Of a stretch of DNA of 54,487 bases, positions 7,052 through 22,734 are shown in pieces; within the stretch, counting starts at the first letter, position 1; each line of letters starts with the position of its first letter. Under the pieces are notes generated by a model. That model searched no databases. It had not been told where the DNA came from and saw nothing but the letters and a program-made list of their open reading frames with translations. The translations under genes and the position numbers were made by a program. This stretch comes from a virus. The stretch spans positions 1-54,487 of IMG/VR virus record IMGVR_UViG_3300033148_005240. One strand, 5' to 3'.

Positions 7052-8484
7052 ATATAAAAACCATCAAATTAACTAATTTTAAGTGTTTTAAGGGGATTAA
7101 ATTCGCATTTGACCCAATGACTCTAATTAGAGGGAAAAATGGCGTAGGTAAGACCACAGCCACGCTGGAAGCCCTTTTATATACTCTATATGGCTACACG
7201 ACCAAAGAATTACTCTCTGATTTGCCTACAAGAGGAGTATCCAAATCTTGTGCTGTAGAAGTAGAATTTACTAGAAATAATCATACTTATATCGTAAAAA
7301 GAGCTTATCCTAGCAAGCTTTTTATTATTAAAGACGGTTCAGTAATTAAATTTAATACTACTGCGGAAGGAAATACTTTTTTAACTGAATTAGTAGGGTC
7401 AAGGGAATATTTTCAGAAATTTAGAGTTATAGATAAAGCTAAAGAAAGTAATCTTTTAGAGCAAGGTAATGTAGCTTTAAAGAGAATTATCTTTGCAGGT
7501 TCGGATGAAATTTTTAATAATATGAGGGTTAGATTATTAGAGATAAAAAGAAAGCGAGAACTCCTTAATAAAGATAGAGTAAAGGTCTCTTCTCATTATC
7601 CTTCAGAAAAAAGATTATCAGTGGTGACAAATAAAATGAAGGAATTAGAGGAACAAGAGACAGATTTGATTAAAACTATAAGAGAATTTGAAACTGATTT
7701 TCGTAAAACAGAAAGAGAAACAGGGAAATTAGAAAATGAAAAAGTCAATTATAATAATCGGAAAAATATATTAAATCGTCCTAGCAAGAAATGTTATGCT
7801 TGTGAACAACTTCTTCCTATTCCTAAAGCTAAAGAAATGTTAGAAGAAGCAAATAAAAAAATCAAAGAAATTAATAATTCTTTAGCAACTAAAAATTCTG
7901 AAATAAAAGAAATGAAAGACCTTATAAATTCTCATAGAACTATAAAAGGCAACATTTCCAATAAATTACAAACCTTATTTGAGTTAAGAAATGAATTAGA
8001 ATCTAGATTAAAGATGAAGGATTTTATTTACACTAATAAAGATGAAGAAATAGTTAAACAAGCGGTGAAAGAATTGGATAATATTTCTTCTTATTATTTA
8101 ACAAAAACTGTTAAAACTTTAACGCCAATAATAAATTCCATTTTACAAAAAATTAATTTTACAATTTCTTTTAATGTAAATAATAAAGGTAAATTTGCAA
8201 TTGAATTACAAAAACCCAATGCCATTTATAAATACAAAGACCTTAGTTGCGGTGAAAAAATCATGCTTCAAATTGCTTTTAAATTGGCTATACTTTTACA
8301 AAATAACGATACAGGTATTATCGTTGCAGATGAAGGGTTTGCTTCATTAGATGAAGATAATTTGCGACATATCTTAGAAATTTTTGAAGGTCTTCCTTTT
8401 CAGCTTTTATTAGTATTGCACCATGCTCCTGATTTAGGAGACAATATAAAAACAATAGATTTAAATAATGAAAAACAAAAGTAA
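7048..8484 (+). CDS. Rad50/SbcC-like ATPase (gp46-like)
   Basis: The 478-residue protein has a Walker A GKNGVGKTT at about residues 29-37, two coiled-coil arms with a zinc hook CYAC near residue 249, an ABC signature LSCGEK near 400, Walker B IIVADEGFASLDED near 425 and an H-loop LLVLHHAP. This order is diagnostic of Rad50/SbcC. With the nuclease subunit at 4535 it would process DNA ends for recombination-dependent replication. It is shorter than cellular SbcC (about 1000 residues), as usual for phage gp46. A homing endonuclease gene begins 17 bases before its stop. Confidence 0.9.
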   Translation: MNIKTIKLTNFKCFKGIKFAFDPMTLIRGKNGVGKTTATLEALLYTLYGYTTKELLSDLPTRGVSKSCAVEVEFTRNNHTYIVKRAYPSKLFIIKDGSVIKFNTTAEGNTFLTELVGSREYFQKFRVIDKAKESNLLEQGNVALKRIIFAGSDEIFNNMRVRLLEIKRKRELLNKDRVKVSSHYPSEKRLSVVTNKMKELEEQETDLIKTIREFETDFRKTERETGKLENEKVNYNNRKNILNRPSKKCYACEQLLPIPKAKEMLEEANKKIKEINNSLATKNSEIKEMKDLINSHRTIKGNISNKLQTLFELRNELESRLKMKDFIYTNKDEEIVKQAVKELDNISSYYLTKTVKTLTPIINSILQKINFTISFNVNNKGKFAIELQKPNAIYKYKDLSCGEKIMLQIAFKLAILLQNNDTGIIVADEGFASLDEDNLRHILEIFEGLPFQLLLVLHHAPDLGDNIKTIDLNNEKQK

Positions 8485-9166
8485 ATATAATAATTATAGT
8501 AAAAATAAATATTGTAAATGTGGAAAATTGATTACTAATTTTGCAATGGACTGTAGAAAATGTGCCGATAGACAACATAGTTTACAAATGAAAGGGAATA
8601 AAAATTCTATGTATGGAAGTAAACGAATAGGTAAGGAAAATCCTTTCTTTGGTAGAAAACATAACGAAAAAACAAAGCAAATAATGAGAAAATTTCGTTT
8701 AGGTAAAAAACATACACAAAATACTATTAAAAAAATAAAAAAACACGCTACTAAATATTGGTTAAATAAAAAACGTCCTAAAAAAACTTGTCAAAAAATT
8801 AGCAAAACTCGAATAGTTCGTAAGGTTGCTAAAGGGAGAAAAAATCCTCATTTTGGAAAACCAGCTTCTCAAGCAAAAAAGATAATATACAAAAAGATTT
8901 TAATGAGAAGTTCTTGGGAAATAGCTTATGCCAAATGGTTAGATAAAAATAATATTAAATGGTCATATGAATCTAAAACTTTTGATTTAGGGAATTCTAC
9001 TTATACTCCCGATTTTTATTTACCTAAACAAAATAAATATATAGAAATTAAAGGATATTATAGAAAAAGTTTTATCAAAAAATTTCAAAGATTTAAAAAA
9101 TTATATCCAGAAATCAATATCCAAATTGAGAATAAAAAATTGTTAAAAAAAGAAGGAATAATTTAG
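8468..9166 (+). CDS. homing endonuclease with NUMOD3 repeats and Vsr-like nuclease domain
   Basis: An N-terminal zinc pair (CKCG, CRKC) is followed by repeated NUMOD3 DNA-binding modules of the N-x-MYG/P-x-FG type (about residues 42-65 and 120-130), then a C-terminal domain with RSSWEIAYAKWLD, YTPDFYLPK and IEIKGY. The last part matches the PD-(D/E)XK core (E...D...ExK) of very-short-patch-repair-like (EDxHD) homing endonucleases. It is unrelated to the five HNH copies. It overlaps the end of the Rad50-like gene by 17 bases and ends in TAG. It probably moves by cutting the cognate site in related phages. Confidence 0.75.
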   Translation: MKNKSKYNNYSKNKYCKCGKLITNFAMDCRKCADRQHSLQMKGNKNSMYGSKRIGKENPFFGRKHNEKTKQIMRKFRLGKKHTQNTIKKIKKHATKYWLNKKRPKKTCQKISKTRIVRKVAKGRKNPHFGKPASQAKKIIYKKILMRSSWEIAYAKWLDKNNIKWSYESKTFDLGNSTYTPDFYLPKQNKYIEIKGYYRKSFIKKFQRFKKLYPEINIQIENKKLLKKEGII

Positions 9167-9486: not shown

Positions 9487-9641
9487 ACCAATATTTTGAT
9501 ACAGAACGGATTGTTTGTTTGGCTTGTGGACATATATGGAAACTTAATTCAGATAAACCAATTACTGATGAACAACATTGGAATTGGGTAAGAGATATGC
9601 TAAGAGAACATAATGAAATAAAAAAAGGGAAAGATGAATAA
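9483..9641 (+). CDS. small CxxCGH protein, 52 aa
   Basis: The start ATG overlaps the upstream stop (ATGA) and the end overlaps the sulfotransferase start. The peptide contains CLACGH (residues 12-17) and later His residues (about 32 and 43), which could complete a zinc site. It contains several Trp residues in a helical second half. No family was recognised. Confidence 0.45.
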   Translation: MNQYFDTERIVCLACGHIWKLNSDKPITDEQHWNWVRDMLREHNEIKKGKDE

Positions 9642-10218
9642 ATTATTTTTTATAATTGGTATGAGACGTTCTGGAACTTCAATATTGAGAGATTTAATTT
9701 CAAAACATCCTCAAGTTGATAAAATTTTATTTGAACCCTATGAACTTTTCCATGCCATTGCAGTGTCTCATTTAGGAAGATATAAAAACGACCCCTATGT
9801 TAAAAAAATAATAAACGATTTTCGTAATACCTCTGCAAAATATAAAGGAGCTAAGTTCGCCCTTAATGCTGGAATAGAAGCTATGACTTGGAGAAGATTG
9901 GCTTTAGTATTTCCTGAAGCAAAATTTATATTTATTGTTAGAAATGCCGAACAAACTTATAAATCTTGGATAGGACAGGATTTTAATAGTGTAAGAGGTT
10001 TATGTTCTAAAGAGTTATATATGGGATTTAGACATCATATAGTAGATAGTTTTGTTCATTTTGAAGAAAAAAATTTAAATAATAGTAGTATGGTATCGTA
10101 TGAATTTTTAGTAGAAAATCCTGATGAAGAATTAAAAGAAGTATGGAAAATTTTAGGAATTGAACCTATAACTGGATTAAAACAATATATGAAAAAACCT
10201 AAAAATTGGAGTAAATAA
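9634..10218 (+). CDS. sulfotransferase (first copy)
   Basis: Residues 6-17 read IIGMRRSGTSIL, the 5'-phosphosulfate-binding loop of PAPS-dependent sulfotransferases, and AKFIFIVRNAEQTYKSW near residue 110 is the 3'-phosphate-binding strand with its conserved Arg. The 194-residue length is compact for the family. It would move sulfate from PAPS to a sugar, lipid or protein hydroxyl. The next genes encode a nucleotidyltransferase and an APS kinase that could supply PAPS. The ribosome site AAAAGGG lies just before ATG 9634. The acceptor is not known, but the glycan genes around it suggest a polysaccharide. Confidence 0.8.
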   Translation: MNKLFFIIGMRRSGTSILRDLISKHPQVDKILFEPYELFHAIAVSHLGRYKNDPYVKKIINDFRNTSAKYKGAKFALNAGIEAMTWRRLALVFPEAKFIFIVRNAEQTYKSWIGQDFNSVRGLCSKELYMGFRHHIVDSFVHFEEKNLNNSSMVSYEFLVENPDEELKEVWKILGIEPITGLKQYMKKPKNWSK

Positions 10219-10709
10219 TGAATATATTGGATATTATGTATGAGCCAAATAAAAATAAATATTCTATTTTAGAAGAAAATGGACATAGAAAAGAAATTAC
10301 AAAAAAAGAATTTTATGAAATTTTAAAATCAAATAAATCAAAGGTAGAATTTACTGGAGAATGGAGTTTATTTATAGGAAGATGGCAACCTTTACATGAA
10401 GGGCATATAAAATTAATGAGAACAGTTTTAGATAAAGGAGGGAAAATTTGTATAGGTATTAGAAATACTAAACAGGATGAAAAAAATCCTTATAATGTAA
10501 AAGAACGAATTGAAATGATTAAAAAAGTTTTTGATAAAGAAATTAAGGAAAATAAAGTAAAATGGGTATCTTTACCTGATATAAAAGAGATTTGTCATGG
10601 CAGAAAAGTAGGTTGGGGTATTACTGAAATAATTTTAGACAAAAAGACTGAAACGATTTCAGCAACAGAAATAAGGAAGCAAAATGAAAAAAAGGAAAAT
10701 TCATCGTAG
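10218..10709 (+). CDS. HxGH nucleotidyltransferase, possible partner of APS kinase
   Basis: The core has IGRWQPLHEGH (residues about 52-62), the HxGH nucleotide-binding motif of the cytidylyl/adenylyltransferase superfamily, and ISATEIR near the C-terminus, matching the ISSTxxR motif. It resembles NadM-like adenylyltransferases more than classical ATP sulfurylase, with about 45 extra N-terminal residues. Its place between a sulfotransferase and APS kinase suggests adenylylation of sulfate or activation of a polar head group. Sulfate adenylylation is inference only. It overlaps the next gene by 26 bases. Confidence 0.7.
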   Translation: MNILDIMYEPNKNKYSILEENGHRKEITKKEFYEILKSNKSKVEFTGEWSLFIGRWQPLHEGHIKLMRTVLDKGGKICIGIRNTKQDEKNPYNVKERIEMIKKVFDKEIKENKVKWVSLPDIKEICHGRKVGWGITEIILDKKTETISATEIRKQNEKKENSS

Positions 10710-11430
10710 AAATTTTAGTTTTCAGGGAATTATTTATAGAATTTTTGTAATTTGTGTAAATGCCTTATTTTTTAAAGTTGGAGCTAAACAAGCCATGCAA
10801 AATTATGGAGCATTAGGGGCTTCTTTAATTTGGAACAGTATTAATATGGCATTATACTTTTTTTATCATGGGATATTTTTAAAATTATTTTCTTTAGAAA
10901 TTAAAACTAAAGGAGCAGTGGTTTGGTTTACTGGACTTCCTTGTTCGGGTAAAACTACTATTGCAGATGCAGTAGCAATTGTATTAAAAAAATTAGGAAA
11001 AAACGTGGAAAGATTAGACGGTGATGTTGTCCGTAAAGGGAAATTAAGTGATGATTTAGGCTTTTCACAAGAAGATAGGGATAAAAATATAAATAGAGTA
11101 AATTTTGTAAGCAAACTTTTATCAAGAAATGAAACTATAGTTTTAGCTTCTTTTGTTTCTCCTTATCGAAAAGTAAGAGATAAAATAAGAAAAAATGTTA
11201 TAAATTTTATAGAAGTTTATGTAGATACTTCTTCTGAAGAATGTGCTCGAAGAGATGTTAAAGGAATGTGGAAACTTGCTAAAGAAAAGAAAATAAAAAA
11301 TTTTACTGGTTATAATGCCCCTTATGAACGACCCTTTAAAAATGAGATTACTGTTTGGACTGAATTAGAAACCATAGAACAAAGCACTCAAAAAGTAATT
11401 AATTATCTTAAACAAAAAAAGCTTATATGA
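10684..11430 (+). CDS. cysC: DUF2061-adenylylsulfate (APS) kinase fusion
   Basis: Residues about 15-75 contain two hydrophobic segments in the DUF2061 style, which would anchor the protein in the membrane. From about residue 78 an APS kinase domain follows: WFTGLPCSGKTT (P-loop), ERLDGDVVRKG, GFSQEDRDKNINR and the FTGYNAPYE substrate loop. APS kinase phosphorylates adenylylsulfate to PAPS, the donor used by both sulfotransferases here. Membrane anchoring would place PAPS synthesis next to glycan assembly. The kinase motifs are clear; the absence of a recognised canonical ATP sulfurylase leaves the APS source open. Confidence 0.85.
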   Translation: MKKRKIHRRNFSFQGIIYRIFVICVNALFFKVGAKQAMQNYGALGASLIWNSINMALYFFYHGIFLKLFSLEIKTKGAVVWFTGLPCSGKTTIADAVAIVLKKLGKNVERLDGDVVRKGKLSDDLGFSQEDRDKNINRVNFVSKLLSRNETIVLASFVSPYRKVRDKIRKNVINFIEVYVDTSSEECARRDVKGMWKLAKEKKIKNFTGYNAPYERPFKNEITVWTELETIEQSTQKVINYLKQKKLI

Positions 11431-12122
11431 AAACTAAATTTTGTAGCAAATGCCATAAGAGAAAAAATATAATAGAATTTCATAAAGATAAAAATAGGAA
11501 ATACAGAAGACATGCTTATTGTAAAGAATGTAGACAAACTTTTAATATGAAAACTCGTAATAAATTAAGAAAAATAAATAAGAAAATATGTTGTCATTGT
11601 AAGCAAATTTTACCTTTAAATGCCTTTTCAAATGATAAATTATCTTTAGATAGTAAAACTTTTATATGCAAAAAATGTAAATATTATGTAGATAAAAAAT
11701 ATCGATTGACAAATAAAGAAAATATTAGAAAAAAGAAGAAAGAATATAAAATAAAAAATAGAACAAAAATATCTTTACATTCAAAAAATTATAATAAAAA
11801 GAAATATAAAATAAATTTAAATTTTAGATTGTTAAATATTTTGAGAAGTAGAATATACTTGGCATTAAAAGAAAAACATAAATCGTTGTCAACAATAAAG
11901 TTGATAGGTTGTTCCGTTAAAAAATTACGAAAATATTTAGAAAAACAATTTAAAAGAGGAATGACTTGGGGTAATTATGGTTTATATAGTTGGCATATTG
12001 ACCATATCAAACCATGTGCTTCTTTTGATTTAAGTAAAGTAAATGAACAGCAAAAATGCTTTAATTATAAAAACTTACAGCCCTTATGGGCAAAAGAGAA
12101 TTTAAGTAAGGGGAAATCATAA
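11427..12122 (+). CDS. HNH homing-type endonuclease (family A, copy 2)
   Basis: Two CxxC-type fingers (CSKCHKRKN...CKEC and CCHCKQ...CKKC) precede the Lys/Arg-rich linker and the HNH core WHIDHIKPCASFDLSK with NLQPLWAKEN. It is the copy with a duplicated finger. The start overlaps the APS kinase stop (ATGA) and the TAA overlaps the next ATG (TAATG), so it is neatly slotted between two sulfation genes without damage to either. It is presumably a selfish invader rather than part of the sulfation pathway. Confidence 0.85.
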   Translation: MKTKFCSKCHKRKNIIEFHKDKNRKYRRHAYCKECRQTFNMKTRNKLRKINKKICCHCKQILPLNAFSNDKLSLDSKTFICKKCKYYVDKKYRLTNKENIRKKKKEYKIKNRTKISLHSKNYNKKKYKINLNFRLLNILRSRIYLALKEKHKSLSTIKLIGCSVKKLRKYLEKQFKRGMTWGNYGLYSWHIDHIKPCASFDLSKVNEQQKCFNYKNLQPLWAKENLSKGKS

Positions 12123-13108
12123 TGAAATTAATAACGATTGGAGGACACAGAAAATCAGGAACTACCTTGCTTGCTAGTCTTTTGGATGGACATCCTAACC
12201 TTTTTGTTTATCCTTATGATTTACATTGGACATACAGTTTTTATCCAGAATATATAAAATCCAAATATTCTAAAAAAGAAAAAATAACGCAAATTACAAA
12301 TATAATTTTACCAGACCTTTATCAGATTTTAGAAAAATGGGTAAAATATGATAAACAAACAATTCAAAATAAAATAAAACCAGAGATTGAAAGAAGAATT
12401 AGAAATTATTTACAAAATAAAAATTCCACAAAAGATTATTTAGATGCACAAATAAAAAGTGTAGTTGCAGTATTAGGTAAAGAACCCAATAACACAATTG
12501 TAATAAAAGATACCCATTGTGAAGTTTATGCGAATTTATTATTTAATTTTTATCCAGATTCTAAATTTGTTAATATAATTAGAGACCCTAGAGATAATTT
12601 TGCTTCTATTTTAACTGGATGGGATAAACATTATAAAAATCAATACGATAGTAAAGAAAGATTATTAAGAGATTTTATAGATAGGGGGTATTTATGTATG
12701 AGAATGGCAAAGGATAATGCGATTAAATTTGGCGTTGGTAAATACATAACCATTCGCTATGAAAATTTAGTGCAATATCCAATACAAGTCATGGCAGAAT
12801 TATGTCAATGGATAGGAATTAGAGAATCTCTTTTAAATCTTAATCCGACTTTTTGTGGAGTAGAGTGGAAAGGAAATAGTTTTACGAAAACTTACAAAGG
12901 AATCAGTAAAAACAGAATTGGTATTTACAAAGAAATATTATCAAAATATCAGAGAAAAGTTATTGAATATTATTTTGGAGACTTAATGGAATCTTTTGGA
13001 TATGCTCTCGATTATAAAAAAGAAGAATGTGTAAATGCAATTAGAGAACATTATAAATGGCTTAATGCTAATGGATTCCACTCTGGAAAACCTTATAGGA
13101 AATATTAA
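12122..13108 (+). CDS. sulfotransferase (second copy)
   Basis: The N-terminus TIGGHRKSGTTLLASLLDGH is the PAPS 5'-phosphosulfate loop, and KFVNIIRDPRDNFAS near residue 152 is the 3'-phosphate strand. With 328 residues it is a full-size Sulfotransfer_3-like enzyme, longer and different from the copy at 9634, so the two probably sulfate different positions. It is followed, overlapping by one base, by the AEP transaminase, tying sulfation and phosphonate genes into one transcript. The acceptor is unknown. Confidence 0.85.
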   Translation: MKLITIGGHRKSGTTLLASLLDGHPNLFVYPYDLHWTYSFYPEYIKSKYSKKEKITQITNIILPDLYQILEKWVKYDKQTIQNKIKPEIERRIRNYLQNKNSTKDYLDAQIKSVVAVLGKEPNNTIVIKDTHCEVYANLLFNFYPDSKFVNIIRDPRDNFASILTGWDKHYKNQYDSKERLLRDFIDRGYLCMRMAKDNAIKFGVGKYITIRYENLVQYPIQVMAELCQWIGIRESLLNLNPTFCGVEWKGNSFTKTYKGISKNRIGIYKEILSKYQRKVIEYYFGDLMESFGYALDYKKEECVNAIREHYKWLNANGFHSGKPYRKY

Positions 13109-14235
13109 TGAAAAAAATTAAAAGAAATATTATATTAACCCCAGCACCAGCTACAACAACTGATACTGTTAAATATGCTCAAGTTGTTCCTGATATTTGT
13201 CCAAGAGAAAAAGAATTTGGAGAATTAATGAATAATATTAGACAAGATTTAATAAAAATTATTCATGGAGATAAGAAATATACTTCTATATTATTTACAG
13301 CTTCAGGAACTTCAATTATGGATGCTGTTATTAATTCTGTTATTCCTAAAAGTGGGAAATTATTAATTTTAGAAAATGGGGCTTATGGTAAAAGAATAGA
13401 ACAAATTGCAGAAGCATATAATATAAAATATAAAACTTTAAAAGTTAAATGGGGAACATCTTTAGATTTGAAATATTTAGATGAATATTTAAGTTGTTAT
13501 TGCAATGCTTTTTCCGCAGTAGCAGTTATTCATCATGAAACAACTACAGGTATTTTAAATGATATTGAAGCTATAGGAAAGATAGTCAAAAAATATAAAA
13601 AAGTTTATATTATAGATACTATTTCCAGTTTTGGAGGGATACCTATCAATATTAAAAAAATAAAAGCAGATTATATTATGGGTTCGGCAAATAAATGTTT
13701 ACAAGGGATGCCTGGTATTTCTTTTGTTATAGCTAAAAAATCTGAATTAAAGAAAATAAAAAATTATTCTGTAAGGTCTTATTATTTAAATCTATGGCGT
13801 AATTATGAATATTTTGAAAAGAAAAAACAAACCCCATTTACTCCAGCTATTCAATGTATTTATGCTTTGAAACAAGCATTAAAAGAATATTTTAAAGAGG
13901 GAGAAGGTAATAGATGGAAACGCTATCAAAAAAATTGGATAATTTTAAGTATAGGTATGGAAGAATTAGGGTTCGAACCTTATTTAAATTTTGGTTTAGA
14001 AAGTAGAATTGTTACTACTTATTATGAACCTAAATCCCCTTATTATAAAAGAAAAAAATTTAATTTTAATAAATTTCATGATAAATTAAAACAAAAAGGC
14101 TTTACTATTTATCCTGGAAAATTAACAGATGAAAAAACTTTTAGATTAGGAAATATTGGAGACATAACAAGAAAAGATATTAAAAAATTTTTAAAAGCAG
14201 TAAAGAAGGTGAAAAATGATTGTTTTATCTCATAA
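13108..14235 (+). CDS. phnW: 2-aminoethylphosphonate transaminase
   Basis: This class V aminotransferase of 375 residues has NIILTPAPATTT at the N-terminus, TASGTSIMDAV (cofactor phosphate loop), YIIDTISSFGG (Asp contacting the pyridoxal ring) and SANKCLQGMPG near residue 195, where Lys binds PLP. The last motif is typical of PhnW. In the biosynthetic direction the enzyme aminates phosphonoacetaldehyde to 2-aminoethylphosphonate (AEP). The mutase, the decarboxylase subunits and two LicD genes follow, so synthesis rather than breakdown is expected. It overlaps the next gene by 20 bases. Confidence 0.85.
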   Translation: MKKIKRNIILTPAPATTTDTVKYAQVVPDICPREKEFGELMNNIRQDLIKIIHGDKKYTSILFTASGTSIMDAVINSVIPKSGKLLILENGAYGKRIEQIAEAYNIKYKTLKVKWGTSLDLKYLDEYLSCYCNAFSAVAVIHHETTTGILNDIEAIGKIVKKYKKVYIIDTISSFGGIPINIKKIKADYIMGSANKCLQGMPGISFVIAKKSELKKIKNYSVRSYYLNLWRNYEYFEKKKQTPFTPAIQCIYALKQALKEYFKEGEGNRWKRYQKNWIILSIGMEELGFEPYLNFGLESRIVTTYYEPKSPYYKRKKFNFNKFHDKLKQKGFTIYPGKLTDEKTFRLGNIGDITRKDIKKFLKAVKKVKNDCFIS

Positions 14236-15184
14236 ACAAATAACTTCTTTAAATATCACTTTTAATGAATGTTTAAATGCCATAGTAGATGTTTTAAAAG
14301 AACACGCTAAGAAGCGAGTTTTTATGCCATCTAAAGTAAGTATTACTCCTGAAGAAGGGATATTTTTCACATCAATGCCTTCTTATGTTCCGAAATATAA
14401 TATGTCAGGAATTAAATGGGTAAGTCGTTTTCCCAAAAATAGTAATAAAAATATTCCAAAAGTAATTAGCACTTATTTACTAAATGATATGATTACAGGG
14501 CATCCTTTAGCAGTAATGGAAGCTAGTTGGCTTACTGCTATGAGAACAGGAGCAATGGCTGGCTTAACTGCTAAATATTTTGCTATTCAAGAAGCCAAAA
14601 CCCTTTCAATTATAGGAGCAGGGGTGCAATCAGTAGCTTGTTTACAATTTATAAAATTACTGTGTCCCCAAATTAAGAAAATAAAAATTTATAGATATAA
14701 GAATACCACAATTCGATTTATTAAAAGATTTAAATCGTCAAAATTAATTTTTGAAATTTGTTCATCAATTAAAAAAACAATAGAAAATTCTGATATTATT
14801 TTAACAGCAACTACTTATGCAGATAAACCTTTTATCAATCCAGAATGGTTGAAACCAGGAATTTTAGCATTACCAATTCATCATAGAGGTTGGGAAAAAT
14901 GTGCTATGAAATTTGATAAAACTATTACAGATGATAAAAAACAAACTTTATATTATAAATCAAAAGGAGAATTTAGCGGAGGATTACCGACTATTTATGC
15001 AGAATTAGGCGAGATTATTTTAGGCAAAATAGCAAGGTCTAATAATAGAGAAAAAATTATAGCTTATAATATAGGAATAGCTATTTGCGACATTGCTTTA
15101 GCTAAAATAATATACGAAAAAGCAGTAAAAAAAGGAATTAAAAATCAACTTTTTAATGATTATAAAATAGGATTTTATTTATGA
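14216..15184 (+). CDS. ornithine cyclodeaminase/mu-crystallin family protein
   Basis: The 322-residue protein has the family's substrate region with GIKWVSRFP and MEASWLTAMRTGAMAGL, then a Rossmann NAD-binding motif IGAGVQS (about residues 137-143). Members include ornithine cyclodeaminase, alanine dehydrogenase and imino-acid reductases. Its position between AEP transaminase and PEP mutase suggests an NAD(P)-linked step on an amino- or imino-compound, perhaps N-modification of AEP or reduction of an aldehyde. No member of this family is known to me in AEP synthesis, so the role is open. Confidence 0.75.
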   Translation: MIVLSHKQITSLNITFNECLNAIVDVLKEHAKKRVFMPSKVSITPEEGIFFTSMPSYVPKYNMSGIKWVSRFPKNSNKNIPKVISTYLLNDMITGHPLAVMEASWLTAMRTGAMAGLTAKYFAIQEAKTLSIIGAGVQSVACLQFIKLLCPQIKKIKIYRYKNTTIRFIKRFKSSKLIFEICSSIKKTIENSDIILTATTYADKPFINPEWLKPGILALPIHHRGWEKCAMKFDKTITDDKKQTLYYKSKGEFSGGLPTIYAELGEIILGKIARSNNREKIIAYNIGIAICDIALAKIIYEKAVKKGIKNQLFNDYKIGFYL

Positions 15185-15837
15185 AAAAGAAAATAATAGT
15201 ATATGCTAATGTAGTATGTGACATGCCTCATAGGGGACATATCGAATTTTTTCGAAAAGCAAAAGCTTTAGGAGATTATCTTATTGTAGGAGTGCATCCT
15301 GATAATATAACTCAAGAATATAAAAGAAAACCTATAATGTCTTATGAAGATAGGCTAGAAATTTTAAAGTCAATTAAAGAAATAGATTTGGTAATTAAAG
15401 ATTGTAGAGATAAAGAATCTCCTACAATATACGAAAATTTAAAAAAATATAATGTCGATATAATAGTTCATGGAGACGATTTCATACCTTCTTATACAAA
15501 AAAAGTAGAAGAGATGGGAATAAAACCGATATTAGTTCCTTATTATCCAAATTTATCTACTACTAAATTACTACAAAATATTAGAAGCAAAAATACTCTA
15601 AAAAATGCTTTAAAAGAGAAAGAAAAATTAATAATAATATCTGCTAATGATGCAATTACAGCGAAACTAGTAGAACAATATGGATTTGATGGGATTTGGA
15701 TTTCTTCCTTTGAAACAAGTGCTAGATTAGGATTAGTAGATAATGAAACTATAAATTTAACAGATATGATAAATATAGCTAGACCAATTGTAGAATCTGT
15801 AAATATTCCTGTTATAGTGGATGCCGATACAGGATAA
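15181..15837 (+). CDS. pepM: cytidylyltransferase-PEP mutase fusion, N-terminal fragment (frame broken)
   Basis: Residues 1-130 form a nucleotidyltransferase domain with HRGH (residues 17-20), as in ethanolamine- and choline-phosphate cytidylyltransferases. After a short linker the PEP mutase barrel begins: GIWISSFETSA, LGLVDNET (catalytic Asp/Asn) and IVDADTG, where TAA stops the frame. The barrel continues in another frame from 15837. The nucleotidyl domain suits activation of AEP to CMP-AEP; the mutase turns phosphoenolpyruvate into phosphonopyruvate, the first C-P bond step. Compared with the family, about 25 bases including the GYGN loop are missing at 15835-15840. If real, only the nucleotidyltransferase may still work. 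Confidence 0.8.
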   Translation: MKKKIIVYANVVCDMPHRGHIEFFRKAKALGDYLIVGVHPDNITQEYKRKPIMSYEDRLEILKSIKEIDLVIKDCRDKESPTIYENLKKYNVDIIVHGDDFIPSYTKKVEEMGIKPILVPYYPNLSTTKLLQNIRSKNTLKNALKEKEKLIIISANDAITAKLVEQYGFDGIWISSFETSARLGLVDNETINLTDMINIARPIVESVNIPVIVDADTG

Positions 15838-16418
15838 CAGTTAAAGAATTAGAAAAAATCGGAATATCTGCTGTTTGCATCGAAGATAATATATTTCCAA
15901 AATCTAATTCTCTTTGGGGAGACAAAATTCCTATAGCAGGTATGAAATTTTTCGGTGCAAAAATCAAAGCAGGAAAGGATATTCAAAAAACAAAATATTT
16001 TTGTATTGTAGCAAGAACAGAAGCTCTCATTAGAGGATATGGCAAAAAAGAAGCTTTAAAAAGAGCCAATTATTATGCAGATTGTGGTGCAGATTTAATT
16101 TTAATGCACAGTAGGGATAAAACTGGAAAAGAAGCATTAGAAATTCCTAAATATTGGAAAAGAAATATTCCTTTAATAATTATACCTTCTAAATTCCCAC
16201 AAATTACAAACAAACAATTATTTAAAGCAGGGTATTCTGTAATAATCTTTGCTAACCAAACTCAAAGAGCCAAAATATTTGGAGTTAAAAAAATATTACA
16301 GATATTGAAAACTAAACAAACTGCAAAATCATTGGAAAATTATATAGCAACTTTAGATGAATTTCGTAGTTTAACCCCAATAGAAGAAACAAAAAGAAGA
16401 AAATTAAAATATGAATAA
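15837..16418 (+). pseudogene. pepM: PEP mutase, C-terminal part continuing the gene at 15181 (frame broken)
   Basis: Reading from ACA at 15837, before the first ATG at 15942, gives TVKELEKIGISAVCIEDN then IFPKSNS, the EDK-FPK-NS gate and catalytic loop (Glu and Lys present), then IVARTEALIRGYG with the substrate Arg, and MHSR with the His. These are diagnostic PEP mutase motifs. Translation from ATG 15942 would omit the EDN-FPK-NS part, so a separate active protein is unlikely. The stop lies in the start region of the decarboxylase gene (8-base overlap). A direct re-read of bases 15800-15860 would settle whether the gene is broken. Confidence 0.8.
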
Positions 16419-16758
16419 AAAATTTGATTTCATAGCAGGAGTGCCTTGTAGCAAATTTAAAGGAATTGTAGATTATAATAAAATTTTAATTTCTACAAGA
16501 GAAGATGAAGCGTTAGCTATGGCAGTTGGGGCATATTTGGTTGGGAAAAAATCAATGACTTTTATGCAAAATAGTGGTTTAGGCAATTGTGTAGATGTTA
16601 TAACTAGTCTTTTGAAACCTTATAATATTTCTATTCCCTTATTGATAAGCGTTAGATATAATCCTGAACATCATAGATTTATGGGTTTAATAACAAAAAA
16701 ATTATTAAAACTTTTAAATTATAATAATTACAAATTAATAGAGAAAGATAATGACTAG
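16411..16758 (+). CDS. phosphonopyruvate decarboxylase, alpha (TPP pyrimidine-binding) subunit
   Basis: The 115-residue protein has IAGVPCSKFKG, then STREDEALAMAVGAYLVG, where the Glu activates thiamine diphosphate, and FMQNSGLGNCVDVITSL. These match the N-terminal half of phosphonopyruvate decarboxylase (Ppd) and the alpha subunit of sulfopyruvate decarboxylase (ComD). The beta half is the next gene with an 8-base overlap. Next to PEP mutase and AEP transaminase, phosphonopyruvate is the likely substrate, giving phosphonoacetaldehyde and CO2. Most bacterial Ppd enzymes are single chains of about 380 residues, so the split form is unusual. Confidence 0.8.
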   Translation: MNKKFDFIAGVPCSKFKGIVDYNKILISTREDEALAMAVGAYLVGKKSMTFMQNSGLGNCVDVITSLLKPYNISIPLLISVRYNPEHHRFMGLITKKLLKLLNYNNYKLIEKDND

Positions 16759-17224
16759 AAAAGAAGCTATAAAAAATATTGTAAAAGCAGTAAAAAAAGG
16801 AGATATTATTGTTTCTTCTACAGGTATGACCAGTAGGGAATTATATAATATAAAGGATAGACCTTTAAATTTTTATATTATGGCATCGATGGGTAATACT
16901 CTTGCAGTAGGATTGGGAATGGCTCTTAACACTTCTAAAAAAGTTATAGTAATAATAGGAGATGGGGAAGCATTAATGGGATTAGGAAGTTTTATAACTT
17001 TAAATAAATTGAAACCAAATAATTTAATAGTTTATGTCTTAAATAATCAAGAACATGCTTCTACAGGTGGACAAATAACTTCTTCTCTTTATTGCAGATT
17101 TCAAAGTTTAGCTCCTTTCAATGTTATAAATGTTCCTATAGATAAAGGCAAAGGTAATGCCCTAAGAATCCCATTATCTTGCAAAACAATAAAAGAAAGA
17201 TTTATGAGGGCTTTAAATGAGTAA
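16751..17224 (+). CDS. phosphonopyruvate decarboxylase, beta (TPP diphosphate-binding) subunit
   Basis: The motifs STGMTSRELY, FYIMASMGNTLAVGLGMAL and IIGDGEALMGLGS, the GDG...N metal/TPP site with YVLNNQEHASTGG, define the C-terminal half of Ppd/ComE-type decarboxylases (157 residues). The active enzyme would be an alpha-beta assembly with the protein from 16411. The irreversible decarboxylation it performs drives C-P bond synthesis forward after the unfavourable mutase step. It overlaps the first LicD gene by 8 bases. A sulfopyruvate substrate cannot be excluded from sequence, but the neighbours argue for phosphonate. Confidence 0.82.
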   Translation: MTRKEAIKNIVKAVKKGDIIVSSTGMTSRELYNIKDRPLNFYIMASMGNTLAVGLGMALNTSKKVIVIIGDGEALMGLGSFITLNKLKPNNLIVYVLNNQEHASTGGQITSSLYCRFQSLAPFNVINVPIDKGKGNALRIPLSCKTIKERFMRALNE

Positions 17225-17792
17225 GCTTATTGGATTAAAAAATTATCTTTTTAAAATGGCAGATGTATTAAAAAAATATAATGTCGAATTTTTCTTATCT
17301 TCTGGAACTCTTTTGGGAGCAATTAGAGATAAAGATTTTATTAAAGGAGATATTGATATTGATATAGGAGTTAAAATTAATTACTTTAAAGATAACAAAT
17401 TGCTTGCAAAAGTATGTGCAGATTTAAAAAAAGTTAATATTTATCCTCATATAAATTGGAATGATTTTGCTTCTACATGTTTTTTAAATTCTAATAAAAT
17501 ACCTTTGGATATATATTATTATAATAAGAAAGGAAAATATTATAATATTTATTTAAAAGATAAAATAAGTAGATTTCCACAAGAATTTATAGATTCATTA
17601 GATAAAATTATTTTTTTAGGTAGAGAATTTAAAATTCCTCATAATCCTGAAAAATATTTAGAATATCTTTATGGTAAAGATTGGAGAATTCCTCAAGTTG
17701 GGAAAAAGGGAACAAGTAATAAAATACCTTATAAACATTATACTCTAATAAGTTATCATTCGATTATACCATTATATAGAAAGCAAAAATGA
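17217..17792 (+). CDS. LicD-family phosphotransferase (first copy)
   Basis: The sequence FFLSSGTLLGAIRDKDF followed by GDIDIDIGV is the LicD/fukutin core, a nucleotidyltransferase-fold site with a DxD metal triad. LicD proteins transfer phosphocholine from CDP-choline to sugars; related enzymes transfer other CMP-activated head groups. Directly after the AEP genes, the attractive substrate is CMP-AEP, giving an AEP-decorated glycan. The protein has 191 residues, and a paralogue follows with a 4-base overlap. The donor and acceptor are inferred from context. Confidence 0.75.
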   Translation: MSKLIGLKNYLFKMADVLKKYNVEFFLSSGTLLGAIRDKDFIKGDIDIDIGVKINYFKDNKLLAKVCADLKKVNIYPHINWNDFASTCFLNSNKIPLDIYYYNKKGKYYNIYLKDKISRFPQEFIDSLDKIIFLGREFKIPHNPEKYLEYLYGKDWRIPQVGKKGTSNKIPYKHYTLISYHSIIPLYRKQK

Positions 17793-18370
17793 ATAAAATT
17801 AAGGCAAAACAATTATTATTCAAAGTAATAGAATCTTTAGAAGAAAATAATATCGATTATTTTTTAGAAGCTGGAACATTATTAGGAGCTATAAGAAATA
17901 AGGAATTTATTAAATACGATAAAGATATAGATATAGGAACAACTAATAATTTTTTCGATGATTATAATAAATTTCAAGCTTTTTTGGCTTCTTTATATAA
18001 GAGAGGTTTAAAAGTTCCTTTAATTAGAGGTAATTGGTCGATTAAAATAAAGGGAGACGATTCTTTACATGTTGATATTGATAGATATTTTTTAAATAAG
18101 AAGAAAGATATTTATTATTGTATAGATTTAAGTAAGCAACATATCAGATATTTTCCAATGGAAATAATATCGGAAAGAAATGGGTATACGTTTTTAGGTA
18201 AAGAAGTTAAAATACTTTTAAATTACAAATCTTATTTAAATATTTTATATGGTAATGATTGGAAAAAACCAAAAAAGAATTTTTATACTAATAATAATAC
18301 TCGGAAATATAACTTAAATAAAAGACTTACAATCGAACATATAATAACGGTAGAAAATGAAGAAATATAA
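17789..18370 (+). CDS. LicD-family phosphotransferase (second copy)
   Basis: This 193-residue paralogue of the preceding gene has FLEAGTLLGAIRNKEFI and KYDKDIDIGT, and shares with it the C-terminal Y-x-x-x-LYG-x-DW motif. Two copies in a row suggest transfer to two different sugar positions or acceptors. The order transaminase, mutase-cytidylyltransferase, decarboxylase, LicD, LicD mirrors a full make-activate-attach route. It overlaps the next gene by 14 bases. Confidence 0.75.
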   Translation: MNKIKAKQLLFKVIESLEENNIDYFLEAGTLLGAIRNKEFIKYDKDIDIGTTNNFFDDYNKFQAFLASLYKRGLKVPLIRGNWSIKIKGDDSLHVDIDRYFLNKKKDIYYCIDLSKQHIRYFPMEIISERNGYTFLGKEVKILLNYKSYLNILYGNDWKKPKKNFYTNNNTRKYNLNKRLTIEHIITVENEEI

Positions 18371-19325
18371 ACTATTAATATTAGGTTATCCAGTAAAAAA
18401 TAAGAAACAAATTAATTTATGTTTTTCAATGCTTACTTATGGATTGGAACAAGCTTTTAAACAAATGGGGCATGTCACTTTAATCGAAAGCGATTATTTT
18501 ACAAAGACTAATAAAAATTATAGTGGACTTTCAATGCCAAAATTAGATTTATCAAAAATACCAAATGTAGATTTTATTATAGTAATAAACTATCATCCTT
18601 TCTTTACTCAAGAAAATATATCGTTATTAAAGAAGAAATGTAAAAAAGTTATATCATTCTTAGAAATAGGAGAATTATCGGATTTTTCTTTTATGTTCAA
18701 AAATACTTCTTTCAAACAGGATAAAGATAAAACAGAAATAATTTCAGCCCCTTATATTTCTAATTTTTATTCTAATGTTCCAAAAGAATCTAAGTCGATT
18801 TTATTAGACCATATATATTTAAATGCTTGGAAAAATGATAAAATCAACCATTATGCTTGGTCAAAAAGAATTTGGACTTGGCTGGAAGAAATAAAAAATG
18901 AATATAAAATATATAGTTTAATTTCTCGTTCTATAGAATTGAAATGCGGTAATCCAAAAGAAGAACATTTAAAAACATTACCTAAATGGATTATTCCTAT
19001 ACAAGCGACTAACTATATCGATTATTTAAAGAAAACTCAAACAATGGAAACTTTTATAGTTACCCATGTGGGCAGTTATAATTTTAGTGTAATTGACATG
19101 TTAGTAAGAGGTATAAGGGTATTAAGTCCTGTTGAAGCAATACCTAAATTTAATATCGATAGATTTAATATTCCAATTTTTAATAATAGAATAGAATTAT
19201 TGAGACTAATCAATGCTCCAATAAACAAAGACAAATGGAATAACCAAATACAAAAATGCACAGGTATGAAAAAAGTAGTTTCTATTATAGACAATAAAAT
19301 TCAAGGATGGTTAAATGAAAAATAG
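18357..19325 (+). CDS. putative GT-B-like glycosyltransferase
   Basis: The 322-residue protein starts with a Rossmann-like strand (KLLILGYPV), has an N-terminal half with helix/strand alternation, and a C-terminal half with THVGSYNFSVIDMLVRGIRVLSP, which resembles the donor-binding end of GT-B enzymes, where a Gly-rich loop and an acidic residue precede 'G-x-R-V-L'. No exact family was recognised, so the call rests on fold pattern and the glycosyltransferase gene next to it. Confidence 0.45.
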   Translation: MKKYKLLILGYPVKNKKQINLCFSMLTYGLEQAFKQMGHVTLIESDYFTKTNKNYSGLSMPKLDLSKIPNVDFIIVINYHPFFTQENISLLKKKCKKVISFLEIGELSDFSFMFKNTSFKQDKDKTEIISAPYISNFYSNVPKESKSILLDHIYLNAWKNDKINHYAWSKRIWTWLEEIKNEYKIYSLISRSIELKCGNPKEEHLKTLPKWIIPIQATNYIDYLKKTQTMETFIVTHVGSYNFSVIDMLVRGIRVLSPVEAIPKFNIDRFNIPIFNNRIELLRLINAPINKDKWNNQIQKCTGMKKVVSIIDNKIQGWLNEK

Positions 19326-21015
19326 AAAACCCACATGTTCAATAATAATACCTTCTTTTAAAAGGGCACATTTACTAAAGTGGGGATTATATTCTTTATC
19401 TCAACAAAAATGTTCTTATTCTTTTGAAATTATAATTTTAAATGATGGAATTCCTGATGATACGGAAAAGGTATGTAAGCTATATGAAAACAAGTTAAAT
19501 ATTAAATATATTTTTACAGGACAAAGAAATTTAAAAGATACTACTTTTTGGAGATGTCCAGGTTATGCAATAAATATAGGAGTTAAACAAGCTAAAGGTA
19601 AATATATTATTTTAACCTGTCCCGAAATTTTTCATTTAGATAACCACGCCATTGAAAAAGTAATTAAAAATTTGATAAAAAAGAAAAAAAAACTAGTTAA
19701 AACTTTTGGTAAAGATGATAGAAAAGGTTTATTTTTAGAATATATCGAAAATACTAAAGGAGAAATAATAGATAAATCTAAAGTAAATTCTTTAAGAGGA
19801 TTACAAACTCATCTTCCTTTCTTTTTGGGAATAAATAAAAAAGATTATTTGAATATTGGAGGATATGATGAAGGTTTTATTGGTTGGGCTTACGACGATA
19901 CCGATTTCATTGCAAGATTAAAAAGATATGGATGTAGTTATATAAAAATAAATTCTACAATTATTCATTTATATCATCCTCGTCATAGAATAGGATTAAA
20001 AAGTATTATGCAATTATATCATTATAACAAAGATTTATATAAGAAACATGAAAAAGAAGGGGTTATATTTGCTAATGTTGGAAAAGATTGGGGACAAATA
20101 AAAGACAGTAAAGATAACAAAAAATTAGTAAAACTGTATACAGAAAGAGAAATGAAATGGAATTTAAAAAAGATACCTAAAATAGCCCATTTTTATTGGG
20201 GAGAAGAAAAACTTCCCTTTCTTAGATATTTAACAGTATATTCTTTTATTAAATTTAATCCAGATTGGAAAATAAAATTTTACGTCCCGAAATTTCCTAC
20301 TAAACAAAAGACCTGGAAAACTAACGAACAAAAATATCAATTAACAGGAACTGATTATTTTTCTAAGTTAAAAGATTTAGGGATAAAAATTTATCCTGTA
20401 GATATGAGAAATATAGGAGTAACCAATAAGATTTCAGAAGTGCATAAATCGGATTTTTTAAGATGGCATTTATTGTCATCTGTTGGAGGGCTTTGGTCAG
20501 ATATGGATATAATATATTTTGAATCTATGAAACAAATGAAAATTAATAAGGAAAATTTTAATCAAACTGACACTGTTGTTTGTATAGGAAAAGATTATGG
20601 ACATTCTATAGGATTTATGCTATCTTCTCCTAAAAATAAATATTTTAAGTATATTTATAAACAAGCTCGTAAAAGATTTGACCCTCTTAATTATCAAGGT
20701 ATAGGAGTTAAATTATTAAATAGTCAGTTTTCTTCTACTGAAGCTATAAACAAAATGTTTCCAGTGTTATTTCCTAAAAATATTCCAGAATCTACAGTTT
20801 ATCCTTATAATGCCACTAAAATAAATGAAATATATACAGAGCCTAATTTATGTAGAATAACAGAAGATACTATAGGATTACATTGGTATGCTGGACATCC
20901 TTTAGCTGGTAGAATGGTAAATAAAGTTTGTGAAGAAAATTGGCAAAAATTTGATAAAGTTATAGGTTTAAGTATGAGAAAAGTGTTAGACGATAAATTT
21001 AATGGGAGAGATTAA
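19315..21015 (+). CDS. two-domain glycosyltransferase (GT2 plus GT32-like)
   Basis: Residues 1-250 are a GT2 domain: CSIIIPSFKRAHLLKWGL, ILNDGIPDD, and GGYDEGFIGWAYDDTDF, matching the galactosyltransferase-type acceptor motif. From about residue 290 (KIAHFYWGEEKLPFLRYL) a second domain of the GT32/DXD-sugar type follows, with SDFLRWHLLSSVGGLWSDMD holding the DxD metal site, and HWYAGHP near the end. At 566 residues it could add two sugars in sequence. It is followed two bases later by the UDP-GlcNAc 2-epimerase gene. Sugar specificity cannot be told. Confidence 0.8.
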   Translation: MKNRKPTCSIIIPSFKRAHLLKWGLYSLSQQKCSYSFEIIILNDGIPDDTEKVCKLYENKLNIKYIFTGQRNLKDTTFWRCPGYAINIGVKQAKGKYIILTCPEIFHLDNHAIEKVIKNLIKKKKKLVKTFGKDDRKGLFLEYIENTKGEIIDKSKVNSLRGLQTHLPFFLGINKKDYLNIGGYDEGFIGWAYDDTDFIARLKRYGCSYIKINSTIIHLYHPRHRIGLKSIMQLYHYNKDLYKKHEKEGVIFANVGKDWGQIKDSKDNKKLVKLYTEREMKWNLKKIPKIAHFYWGEEKLPFLRYLTVYSFIKFNPDWKIKFYVPKFPTKQKTWKTNEQKYQLTGTDYFSKLKDLGIKIYPVDMRNIGVTNKISEVHKSDFLRWHLLSSVGGLWSDMDIIYFESMKQMKINKENFNQTDTVVCIGKDYGHSIGFMLSSPKNKYFKYIYKQARKRFDPLNYQGIGVKLLNSQFSSTEAINKMFPVLFPKNIPESTVYPYNATKINEIYTEPNLCRITEDTIGLHWYAGHPLAGRMVNKVCEENWQKFDKVIGLSMRKVLDDKFNGRD

Positions 21016-21017
21016 TT

Positions 21018-22091
21018 ATGAAAATAATTACAATTTTAGGAACTAGACCCGAAATTATCAGGCTTTCTCGGATTATACCTAAACTTGATAAAGTTTGTAA
21101 ACATATTTTAGTGCATACAGGACAAAACTATGATAAAAATCTTAGCGATATTTTCTTTAGGGATTTAGGTCTAAGACAACCTGATTATTATTTGGGAGCT
21201 AAAGGAAGTATGGGCGAACAAATCGCTACAATTCTGCGAGAAGTTGAGAAGATATTTATGAAAGAGAAGCCAGATAAAGTTTTGGTATTGGGTGATACAA
21301 ATTCAGGATTATCTACAATTATAGCAGAAAGAATGAAAATACCCTGTTTACATATGGAAGCTGGTAATAGGGCAGGGGAACGCATACCAGAGGAGATAAA
21401 TAGGCATATTATAGATAGTGTATGCACTATTAATGCCCCATATACCGATAAATCTAAAGAAAATTTATTACGAGAAGGATTCAATCCTAAAAAAATAGTG
21501 GTATCAGGAAATCCGATATTAGAAGTAATTAACTACTATAAGCCACAAATCGATAAAAGCAATATATTAGAACAGTTGAATTTAAAAGCTAAACAATATA
21601 TGCTTGTTACTGTGCATCGTCAAGAAAATGTCGATGATGTAAAAAGATTTAATAAGATAGTTCAAGCATATAATTCGATAGCTGAAACAGGTATACAAGT
21701 TATTATTTCAACACATCCTCGCACTCGAAGTAAAATGAATAATTTAAAAATTAAAATACATCCAAATGTGAGATTTTTAGAACCTTTTGGATTTTTTGAT
21801 TTTATTACTCTTGAAAAAAATGCTAAAGTTATATTAACCGATAGCGGAACTGTTCAAGAAGAAGCTTGTATATTGCATATTCCTTGTGTTATAACAAGAA
21901 AAGCAACTGAAAGAATGGAAACTATTGAATGTGGAGCTACTATTTTGGCTGGAATAGAAAGTAAAAATATTTATGAAAGTTATAAGCAAGCAATGGAGAT
22001 GAATATAAATTGGATAGCACCTAAAGAATATTTGGATGAAGATGTAAGTGATAAAATTATTAATTATCTTTCAAATAAATGGGAATATTAA
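21018..22091 (+). CDS. UDP-N-acetylglucosamine 2-epimerase, non-hydrolysing (WecB/WbjD-like)
   Basis: The 357-residue protein has ILGTRPEIIRLS, HTGQNYD, GDTNSGL, HMEAGNRAGERIPEEINR (the active-site His and Glu region), VTVHRQEN and LTDSGTVQEEA, all in family order. These enzymes invert C2 of UDP-HexNAc sugars. Together with the 4,6-dehydratase and RmlD-like genes just downstream it fits the last step to UDP-L-FucNAc (WbjD/CapG) or UDP-L-QuiNAc (WbvD). A plain WecB giving UDP-ManNAc is the alternative. An HNH gene separates it from its pathway partners. Confidence 0.85.
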   Translation: MKIITILGTRPEIIRLSRIIPKLDKVCKHILVHTGQNYDKNLSDIFFRDLGLRQPDYYLGAKGSMGEQIATILREVEKIFMKEKPDKVLVLGDTNSGLSTIIAERMKIPCLHMEAGNRAGERIPEEINRHIIDSVCTINAPYTDKSKENLLREGFNPKKIVVSGNPILEVINYYKPQIDKSNILEQLNLKAKQYMLVTVHRQENVDDVKRFNKIVQAYNSIAETGIQVIISTHPRTRSKMNNLKIKIHPNVRFLEPFGFFDFITLEKNAKVILTDSGTVQEEACILHIPCVITRKATERMETIECGATILAGIESKNIYESYKQAMEMNINWIAPKEYLDEDVSDKIINYLSNKWEY

Positions 22092-22092
22092 G

Positions 22093-22734
22093 ATGAAAAG
22101 AAAAAAATGCACTTGTTGCAGAAAATTAAAAAAGTTATCCCAATTTTCTATTCGTAAACAAAATAAAGATAATCATGATTCTTGGTGTCAAGAATGTTAT
22201 AGAATAAAAAGTAGGGAATATGGTAAAAAACATTTAAAACAAAAATTAGAATATAACAAAAAATGGAGGAAAGAAAATTCAGAAAAATATCATAAATCAA
22301 ATAAAGATTATTACGCTAAAAATAAAAAAATAATGAATAAAAGAGTTAAATTATGGAAAATAAATAATTCGAAAAAAGTTAAAAAATGGAGAATAAAAGA
22401 TTATAAATATAGAATAAATAATGATATAAGTTGGAAAATATTACGGAATTTACGAACCAGAATACATCATGCTTTAGTTCGTGAAACTAAAAGTAAACCG
22501 ACAATAAAATTATTAAACTGTTCTATAAAAAAATTAAAATATTATATACAAAAACAATTCAAAAAAGACATGACTTGGAATAATTATGGTAAATGGCATA
22601 TAGACCATATTAGACCTTGTGCTAGTTTTGATTTATCTAAACCTGAAGAACAAAGAAAATGTTTTAATTATAAAAATTTACAGCCATTATGGGGTAAAGA
22701 AAATCAATCAAAAGGGGCAAAATATGAAAAATAA
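22093..22734 (+). CDS. HNH homing-type endonuclease (family A, copy 3)
   Basis: From ATG 22093 the protein has CTCCRKLKKLSQF and CQEC fingers, the basic linker, LLNCSIKKLKYYIQKQF and the HNH core WHIDHIRPCASFDLSK with NLQPLWGKEN. An upstream in-frame start at 22048 lies inside the epimerase gene and would add unrelated residues, so 22093 is preferred. It starts one base after the epimerase stop and overlaps the dehydratase by 11 bases, thus it is inserted at a gene junction within the sugar pathway. Confidence 0.85.
   Translation: MKRKKCTCCRKLKKLSQFSIRKQNKDNHDSWCQECYRIKSREYGKKHLKQKLEYNKKWRKENSEKYHKSNKDYYAKNKKIMNKRVKLWKINNSKKVKKWRIKDYKYRINNDISWKILRNLRTRIHHALVRETKSKPTIKLLNCSIKKLKYYIQKQFKKDMTWNNYGKWHIDHIRPCASFDLSKPEEQRKCFNYKNLQPLWGKENQSKGAKYEK

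Follow-up and report, generated by a model that had tools for sequence, protein, structure and literature searches.

A predicted phosphonate biosynthesis operon on a viral contig

We analysed a 54,487-base IMG/VR virus record (IMGVR_UViG_3300033148_005240; 'the window' denotes this whole stretch of DNA), which carries on its plus strand, at 13108–18370, an operon whose products would make, activate and attach 2-aminoethylphosphonate (AEP). The genes run in the order PhnW-type AEP transaminase, ornithine cyclodeaminase/mu-crystallin family enzyme (OCD), cytidylyltransferase fused to phosphoenolpyruvate (PEP) mutase, alpha and beta subunits of phosphonopyruvate decarboxylase (Ppd), two LicD-family transferases, a 322-amino-acid protein and a glycosyltransferase. 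Neighbouring genes overlap by 1–20 nucleotides at each junction through 19325, except at a break inside the mutase. An initial annotation had described 13108–18370 as one overlapping operon, which the coordinates and overlaps bear out in part: the mutase break interrupts it, and the OCD gene at 14216–15184 had been missed. The operon lies between DNA genes on the left of the window (exonuclease, SbcC/SbcD-like and others, with recombination and exonuclease PHROG matches) and tail genes in the right half, within a run of glycan genes at about 9.6–27.5 kb; the tape-measure and tail-fibre PHROG matches of the right half show that the contig also encodes virion structural proteins. The same gene order recurs in a second virus, the sister contig L002. 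Because the order is conserved there and the E-values of the family matches are low, chance is excluded.

The transaminase (13108–14235, 375 amino acids) passes the curated equivalog cut-off of TIGR03301 (425.9 versus 360.8 bits). Its catalytic lysine site, SANKCLQGMPG, contains the SANKCLQG named in the initial annotation, and its closest solved structure is the AEP-transaminase half of a cytidylyltransferase–transaminase fusion (6pd1, E = 4e-88). The adjoining OCD gene (14216–15184, 322 amino acids) encodes an NAD(P)-dependent enzyme (PF02423, E = 4e-55) whose closest relative of solved structure is the archaeal alanine dehydrogenase 1omo (E = 1e-37). It scores 163.8 bits against the 409.15 required by the alanine dehydrogenase equivalog TIGR02371, and the arginine directly before the MP motif of 1omo is a threonine here. 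The L002 copy is 88% identical, with a ratio of non-synonymous to synonymous substitution rates (dN/dS) of 0.16, and the gene was found in none of 24 other viral records tested. It may act as an alanine dehydrogenase or as an imine reductase in support of the transaminase.

Both halves of the decarboxylase are present, as had been claimed. The alpha subunit (16411–16758, 115 amino acids), an N-terminal thiamine pyrophosphate (TPP) domain with homologues in other viral contigs, matched TIGR03297 (E = 4.7e-23) and TIGR03845 (E = 1.4e-20), and nothing in a Pfam scan. The beta subunit (16751–17224, 157 amino acids), with a TPP-binding GDG...NN motif, matched TIGR03846 (E = 2e-37) and TIGR03297 (E = 1.3e-34), and its closest solved structure is 9iz3, 'phosphonopyruvate decarboxylase beta subunit' (E = 2e-18). 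When Ppd and sulfopyruvate decarboxylase models were compared, TIGR03297 outscored TIGR03845 for alpha (81.8 versus 73.8 bits) and TIGR03846 outscored TIGR03297 for beta (128.8 versus 119.8), with all scores below cut-offs; it is the PEP mutase context that decides the assignment as Ppd. In L002 (11608–12828), an HNH homing-endonuclease-like open reading frame (ORF) has displaced the start codon of the beta subunit and runs on into it in the same frame (406 amino acids).

The two predicted phospho/phosphono-transferases at 17217–17792 and 17789–18370, 38% identical to each other, score 54.8 and 48.9 bits against PF04991 (gathering cut-off, 22.6 bits) and have the conserved aspartate motif, so that profile searches left them in the LicD family to which they had been assigned. 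An AlphaFold model of the first (pLDDT 72) has the LicD/FKRP fold, its nearest match being FKRP, including its complexes with cytidine monophosphate (CMP) and CDP-ribitol (E = 3e-8).

The PEP mutase and its break

The fusion of PEP mutase to an HxGH cytidylyltransferase, another element of the initial annotation, holds at the level of families; its reading frame is intact in L002 and broken in the window. The frame at 15181–15837 joins a cytidylyltransferase-like domain (PF01467, 72.7 bits) to the N-terminal part of the mutase (PF13714, 66 bits), both above cut-off, and ends at the metal-binding DADTG motif. DNA alignment with L002, in which the protein is intact (418 amino acids), revealed a 25-bp frame-shifting deletion immediately after this motif, leading to a premature stop at 15835–15837. 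The C-terminal part (15942–16418; PF13714, 61.1 bits) lies in a frame open from 15783 to 16418, and an EDNIFPKSNS loop precedes its ATG at 15942 in that frame. Relative to L002, dN/dS is 0.066 for the N-terminal half and 0.12 for the C-terminal half (0.12–0.35 for the other operon genes compared), and both halves are under purifying selection. Because dN/dS is low in both halves and in the other genes, the deletion is either a recent loss or an assembly error. We rejected programmed frameshifting as a way past the break, since its product would be missing the residues that follow DADTG and no slippery sequence is obvious.

We analysed the intact L002 mutase in place of an edited window sequence. 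Compared with the Mytilus PEP mutase, it conserves S46, D58, D85, D87, E114, K120, N122, S123, L124, R159 and H190, the sole change among the residues compared being K116 to N. PF13714 with the magnesium ligands and loop residues K120 and N122 is thus complete in L002 and spread over two frames in the window. The best-scoring NCBIfam model for this protein is TIGR02320 (245.1 bits; equivalog cut-off, 319.55). The signature EDKXXXXXNS is replaced by EDNIFPKSNS in L002 and the window, by EDNVYPKTNS in the viral contig L179 and by EDNVYPKRCS in the bacterial sister group. The closest bacterial mutases, from Nitrospira and Nitrospinota (41–44% identity), share the EDN, and at most Nitrospira loci with such a mutase Ppd and PhnW adjoin. 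Rice 2019 (PMC6697681) filtered by the EDKXXXXXNS signature; an EDK-based filter would overlook the whole EDN branch.

Related pathways in other viruses

About 27 other IMG/VR contigs have a PEP mutase, and Ppd accompanies it in nearly all of them. The closest is L002 (101,595 bp, 82% at the nucleotide level), which has the window's order from PhnW through OCD, the fused and intact mutase, both Ppd subunits and two LicD genes to the glycosyltransferase, along with matches to phage DNA polymerase, UvsX, primase and RuvC-like replication proteins. Scanning IMG/VR with fused mutases as queries recovered 19 further records at 32–35% identity (L019–L037); an alignment scan with DADTGYGN-type sequences added L179 (67%), L180–L183 (46–56%) and L184 (36%), and a Ppd-beta scan added L193. 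Single-protein Ppd-beta scans of IMG/VR gave no match, and alignment queries were needed. The set includes near-duplicates (L031/L032 and L182/L183), and no Ppd was observed close to the mutase in L022 (at a contig end), L030 or L180. Virion genes lie within a few kilobases of several of these operons: terminase large subunit (L181, L182), head protease and major head genes (L179, L184) and tape measure (L180). In the T4-like contig L184, PepM–Ppd–PntC–PhnW directly adjoins the head genes. LicD was found in 6 of 25 records tested, L002 and L184 included; L180–L183 carry a CDP-alcohol phosphotransferase instead, and at least L181–L183 also have a separate small cytidylyltransferase.

Several candidates were set aside. 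With the motif LEDQTIPKRCG and a branch length of 5.9, L185 was not accepted as a PEP mutase. An Acinetobacter 'phage MD-2021a' with a PhnW or PEP mutase match has chromosomal-looking gene content, two human faecal 'phage' contigs (L009, L010) resemble phosphonate loci of bacteria and were excluded from the viral set, and some unannotated Listeria/Staphylococcus 'phage' matches to PhnW or PEP mutase were left out of the counts.

Among cultivated phages, Vibrio phage Va2 (MW073017.1; L012) alone showed a PEP mutase and a Ppd-like TPP protein. It differs from the window in that these genes are not adjacent, the mutase is very divergent and unfused, and no PhnW or iron-containing alcohol dehydrogenase match was found. 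At 104837–110942 the two genes flank ribonucleotide reductase genes; their position beside nucleotide metabolism might indicate that they serve another purpose, conceivably DNA modification.

Members of a conserved protein family (cluster c5), at most about 390 amino acids long, are encoded directly before or directly after the fused mutase in L021 (6827–7987), L020, L027, L029, L033 and L035, and a protein resembling it lies in L179 (13809–14858). The family has no Pfam match and is possibly an alkaline-phosphatase-superfamily transferase.

In a phylogenetic tree, the mutases of L002, L179, L180, L181 and L182 group in a single clade with 100/100 support, whose stem is long and whose sister group is Nitrospira/Nitrospinota; the L184 mutase groups with Bacteroidia and Bacillota. 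These separate positions indicate at least two entries of PEP mutase into viruses. A single viral origin for a second viral clade ('EHF' type, L019–L037) was not accepted; the genome scan did not target its bacterial relatives.

The viral pathways also differ in what follows the decarboxylase. In the established chemistry, a dehydrogenase yields 2-hydroxyethylphosphonate (HEP) and PhnW yields AEP. A short iron-containing alcohol dehydrogenase (Fe-ADH) recurs beside Ppd or the mutase in viral contigs; whole-record search found it in 21 of 26 records and L193 makes 22. PhnW was found in three records only (the window, L002 and L184), none with Fe-ADH; the profile search for PhnW did not extend to L193. 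The phage Fe-ADH profile had no match in the window or L002, and no HEP-forming dehydrogenase was identified there on this basis. The mutual exclusion gives a naive Fisher value of 0.004, uncorrected for kinship, the window and L002 representing one event and L184 another. Because the two genes never co-occur in the sampled records, it is the fate of the aldehyde that varies. Most viral versions look like HEP rather than AEP pathways, and the window lineage, with PhnW and without Fe-ADH, seems to have exchanged its head group.

Glycan genes around the operon

Downstream on the plus strand, the 322-amino-acid protein overlapping the operon (18357–19325) has no Pfam or NCBIfam match, is 88% identical in L002 and gave an AlphaFold model too poor for use (pLDDT 39); it is a possible glycosyltransferase by position only. 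The next gene (19315–21015) encodes a glycosyltransferase with a family-2 domain and a DXD sugar-binding domain (PF00535, PF02709, PF04488). In L179, Ppd-beta and a glycosyltransferase 49% identical to this protein share one 722-amino-acid frame, which is the strongest indication from sequence that phosphonate synthesis may work jointly with glycan assembly. Three nucleotide-sugar genes follow on the same strand: a WecB/CapG-type UDP-N-acetylglucosamine (UDP-GlcNAc) 2-epimerase (21018–22091; TIGR00236, 283.7 bits against 210; CapG 7ya2, E = 4e-100), a CapE/FnlA/PseB-like UDP-GlcNAc 4,6-dehydratase/5-epimerase (22619–23707, the listed ORF, whose true start is probably later; PF02719, 275 bits; best solved relatives 4j2o, WbjB/CapE-type, and CapE 3vvb) and an RmlD-type nucleotide-sugar reductase (23892–24743; PF04321, 93.6 bits). 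Together they suggest synthesis of a UDP-N-acetyl-L-fucosamine (UDP-L-FucNAc)-type sugar, with the last step more conjectural because the reductase matches RmlD (its best solved relatives are RmlD-type reductases), not CapF. A permuted papain-like amidase (peptidase C92, YiiX type; 27048–27530) closes the glycan run, and a short ORF resembling it lies in the sister contig (L014, 8247–8732).

Directly upstream of the operon, 9634–13108 holds a possible make-and-attach route for sulfate: a sulfotransferase (9634–10218), an NMNAT-like nucleotidyltransferase (10218–10709), an adenosine 5′-phosphosulfate (APS) kinase with an N-terminal hydrophobic extension (10684–11430) and a second sulfotransferase (12122–13108). 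L002 keeps both sulfotransferases and lacks the kinase and nucleotidyltransferase at this place. Genes that, judged by match or by appearance, are endonuclease-like (of the HNH, endonuclease VII or I-TevI zinc-finger kinds) are dispersed over the window at 3126–3806, 8468–9166, 11427–12122, 22048–22734 and 49973–50659, two of them within the glycan run. A cytosol aminopeptidase M17 catalytic domain lies between SbcD-like and SbcC-like genes in both the window (5391–6302, by Pfam) and L002 (3718–4626).

A proposed phage-borne phosphonyl-tailoring pathway

The gene families, their order, conservation, selection, phage context and recurrence, and the mutual exclusion of PhnW and Fe-ADH within the records sampled, are the demonstrated part of the case. 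On these grounds we favour, with a probability of roughly 60%, a phage-borne phosphonyl-tailoring operon in which AEP would be made, activated as CMP-AEP and attached by LicD to a phage-directed glycan that includes a UDP-L-FucNAc-type sugar. PEP mutase would convert phosphoenolpyruvate to phosphonopyruvate, and the two-subunit thiamine enzyme would convert this to phosphonoacetaldehyde, drawing the unfavourable mutase step forward. Transamination by PhnW would then give AEP, with the OCD enzyme perhaps regenerating the amino donor or modifying the amine. The cytidylyltransferase domain would form CMP-AEP, from which the two LicD enzymes would transfer AEP to a glycan built by the downstream glycosyltransferases and nucleotide-sugar enzymes. 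The decorated glycan would most likely be displayed on the infected-cell surface or the virion, changing recognition by phages or predators.

The chemistry of this route is well supported by homology, and the enzyme families agree with the AEP synthesis and nucleotidyl-activation logic of the initial annotation, whose further proposals of AEP attachment to a glycan and masking of receptors we retain as conjecture. From sequence we infer each reaction, the CMP-AEP product, the role of LicD as AEP transferase, the glycan acceptor, the surface destination and the benefit. Several observations weigh against the proposal. LicD donors and acceptors are not readable from sequence. The window's mutase is frame-shifted, and provided that the assembly is correct the route may be incomplete in this phage. 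Neither the mutase nor Ppd reaches an NCBIfam equivalog cut-off. The cytidylyltransferase domain joined to the mutase belongs to the Fom1 (PF01467) type, and the enzyme of this type that has been characterised uses HEP, not AEP.

This last point underlies the strongest alternative, which we consider unlikely: that the operon makes and CMP-activates another phosphonate, either HEP through a host dehydrogenase or an AEP N-modified by OCD. Fom1 makes CMP-HEP (PMC6697681), the solved structures nearest to the cytidylyltransferase domain include 5x3d, deposited as PEP phosphomutase, the 22 other viral records with Fe-ADH look HEP-type, and of the records tested only the window and L002 have OCD. 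Set against this, the two contigs lack Fe-ADH and have a PhnW above its equivalog cut-off. Less probable still is a decaying passenger, once useful and now broken by the 25-bp deletion, given that all other operon genes are intact, the mutase halves retain dN/dS of 0.07–0.12, L002 is unbroken and the deletion could be an assembly error. A role in phosphorus storage or scavenging rather than surface decoration has a precedent in the many phosphorus-acquisition genes of phages (PMC10987575); we regard it as improbable, because these genes build rather than break carbon–phosphorus (C–P) bonds, their neighbours are LicD, glycosyltransferase and nucleotide-sugar genes, and L179 has Ppd-beta and a glycosyltransferase as one fusion. 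Misclassified bacterial capsule loci, as the capsule-like content and the two bacterial-looking faecal records might suggest, are very improbable given the tape-measure, tail-fibre and recombination genes of the window, the replication genes of L002, the terminase, capsid, head protease or tape-measure genes beside related operons and the separate 100/100 clade of five viral mutases.

Relation to known systems

The proposed tailoring pathway most resembles bacterial phosphonyl tailoring (Pnt) and the PntC/AEP clusters of Treponema, Olsenella and Atopobium, which likewise group PEP mutase, AEP-forming enzymes, a nucleotidyltransferase and LicD-like or glycosyltransferase genes; PEP mutase–nucleotidyltransferase fusions are common, and PntC makes CMP-AEP (Rice 2019, PMC6697681). 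The window differs in being phage-borne, in its PF01467 rather than MobA-like nucleotidyltransferase, two short Ppd subunits, added OCD and EDN motif. Fom1, the bifunctional cytidylyltransferase–PEP mutase of fosfomycin biosynthesis, has the same domain order (N-terminal PF01467, C-terminal PEP mutase); it serves an antibiotic through CMP-HEP, whereas the PhnW and LicD genes of the window suggest AEP and a glycan, respectively. The Bacteroides fragilis capsular polysaccharide (PMC6697681) bears AEP on a glycan, as predicted here, in a bacterial capsule without a phage. Flandersviridae gut phages share phage LicD, proposed to alter the host surface and block superinfection, and differ in having licD and ispD-like genes only, with no C–P synthesis (Benler 2021, PMC8008677).

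Reported phage genes include those for phosphonate and phosphate acquisition, many for phosphorus acquisition and phnW as a mineralisation gene (PMC10987575), and C–P cleavage is among the described functions. In the open-access literature, with subscription papers and preprints outside the search, we found no description of phage-encoded phosphonate biosynthesis. The initial annotation's view of such a pathway as rare or undescribed in phages agrees with this search as to description; the window is not unique, given the other viral contigs and Va2.

Tentatively, and at slightly less than even odds, the viral loci may be versions of a modular phage phosphonoglycan system, arising from at least two and probably three PEP mutase acquisitions, that combines HEP (Fe-ADH) or AEP (PhnW), a PF01467 or MobA-type cytidylyltransferase and LicD or a CDP-alcohol phosphotransferase to coat the virion or infected cell; the window lineage would add a phage-made aminosugar and possibly sulfation. 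The finding suggests that phages repaint surfaces with chemistry not previously known from them. One hypothesis holds that bacterial surface phosphonates may protect against phages and grazers (PMC8931226). That phages themselves carry the pathway, in HEP and AEP versions and near virion genes, suggests that they too draw on this surface chemistry, possibly to keep out competitors or to disguise the virion, and short, clonable operons are now on hand for testing this. C–P bond synthesis accounts for a large and poorly understood share of marine and soil phosphorus chemistry, and viruses now join the possible sources of environmental phosphonates.

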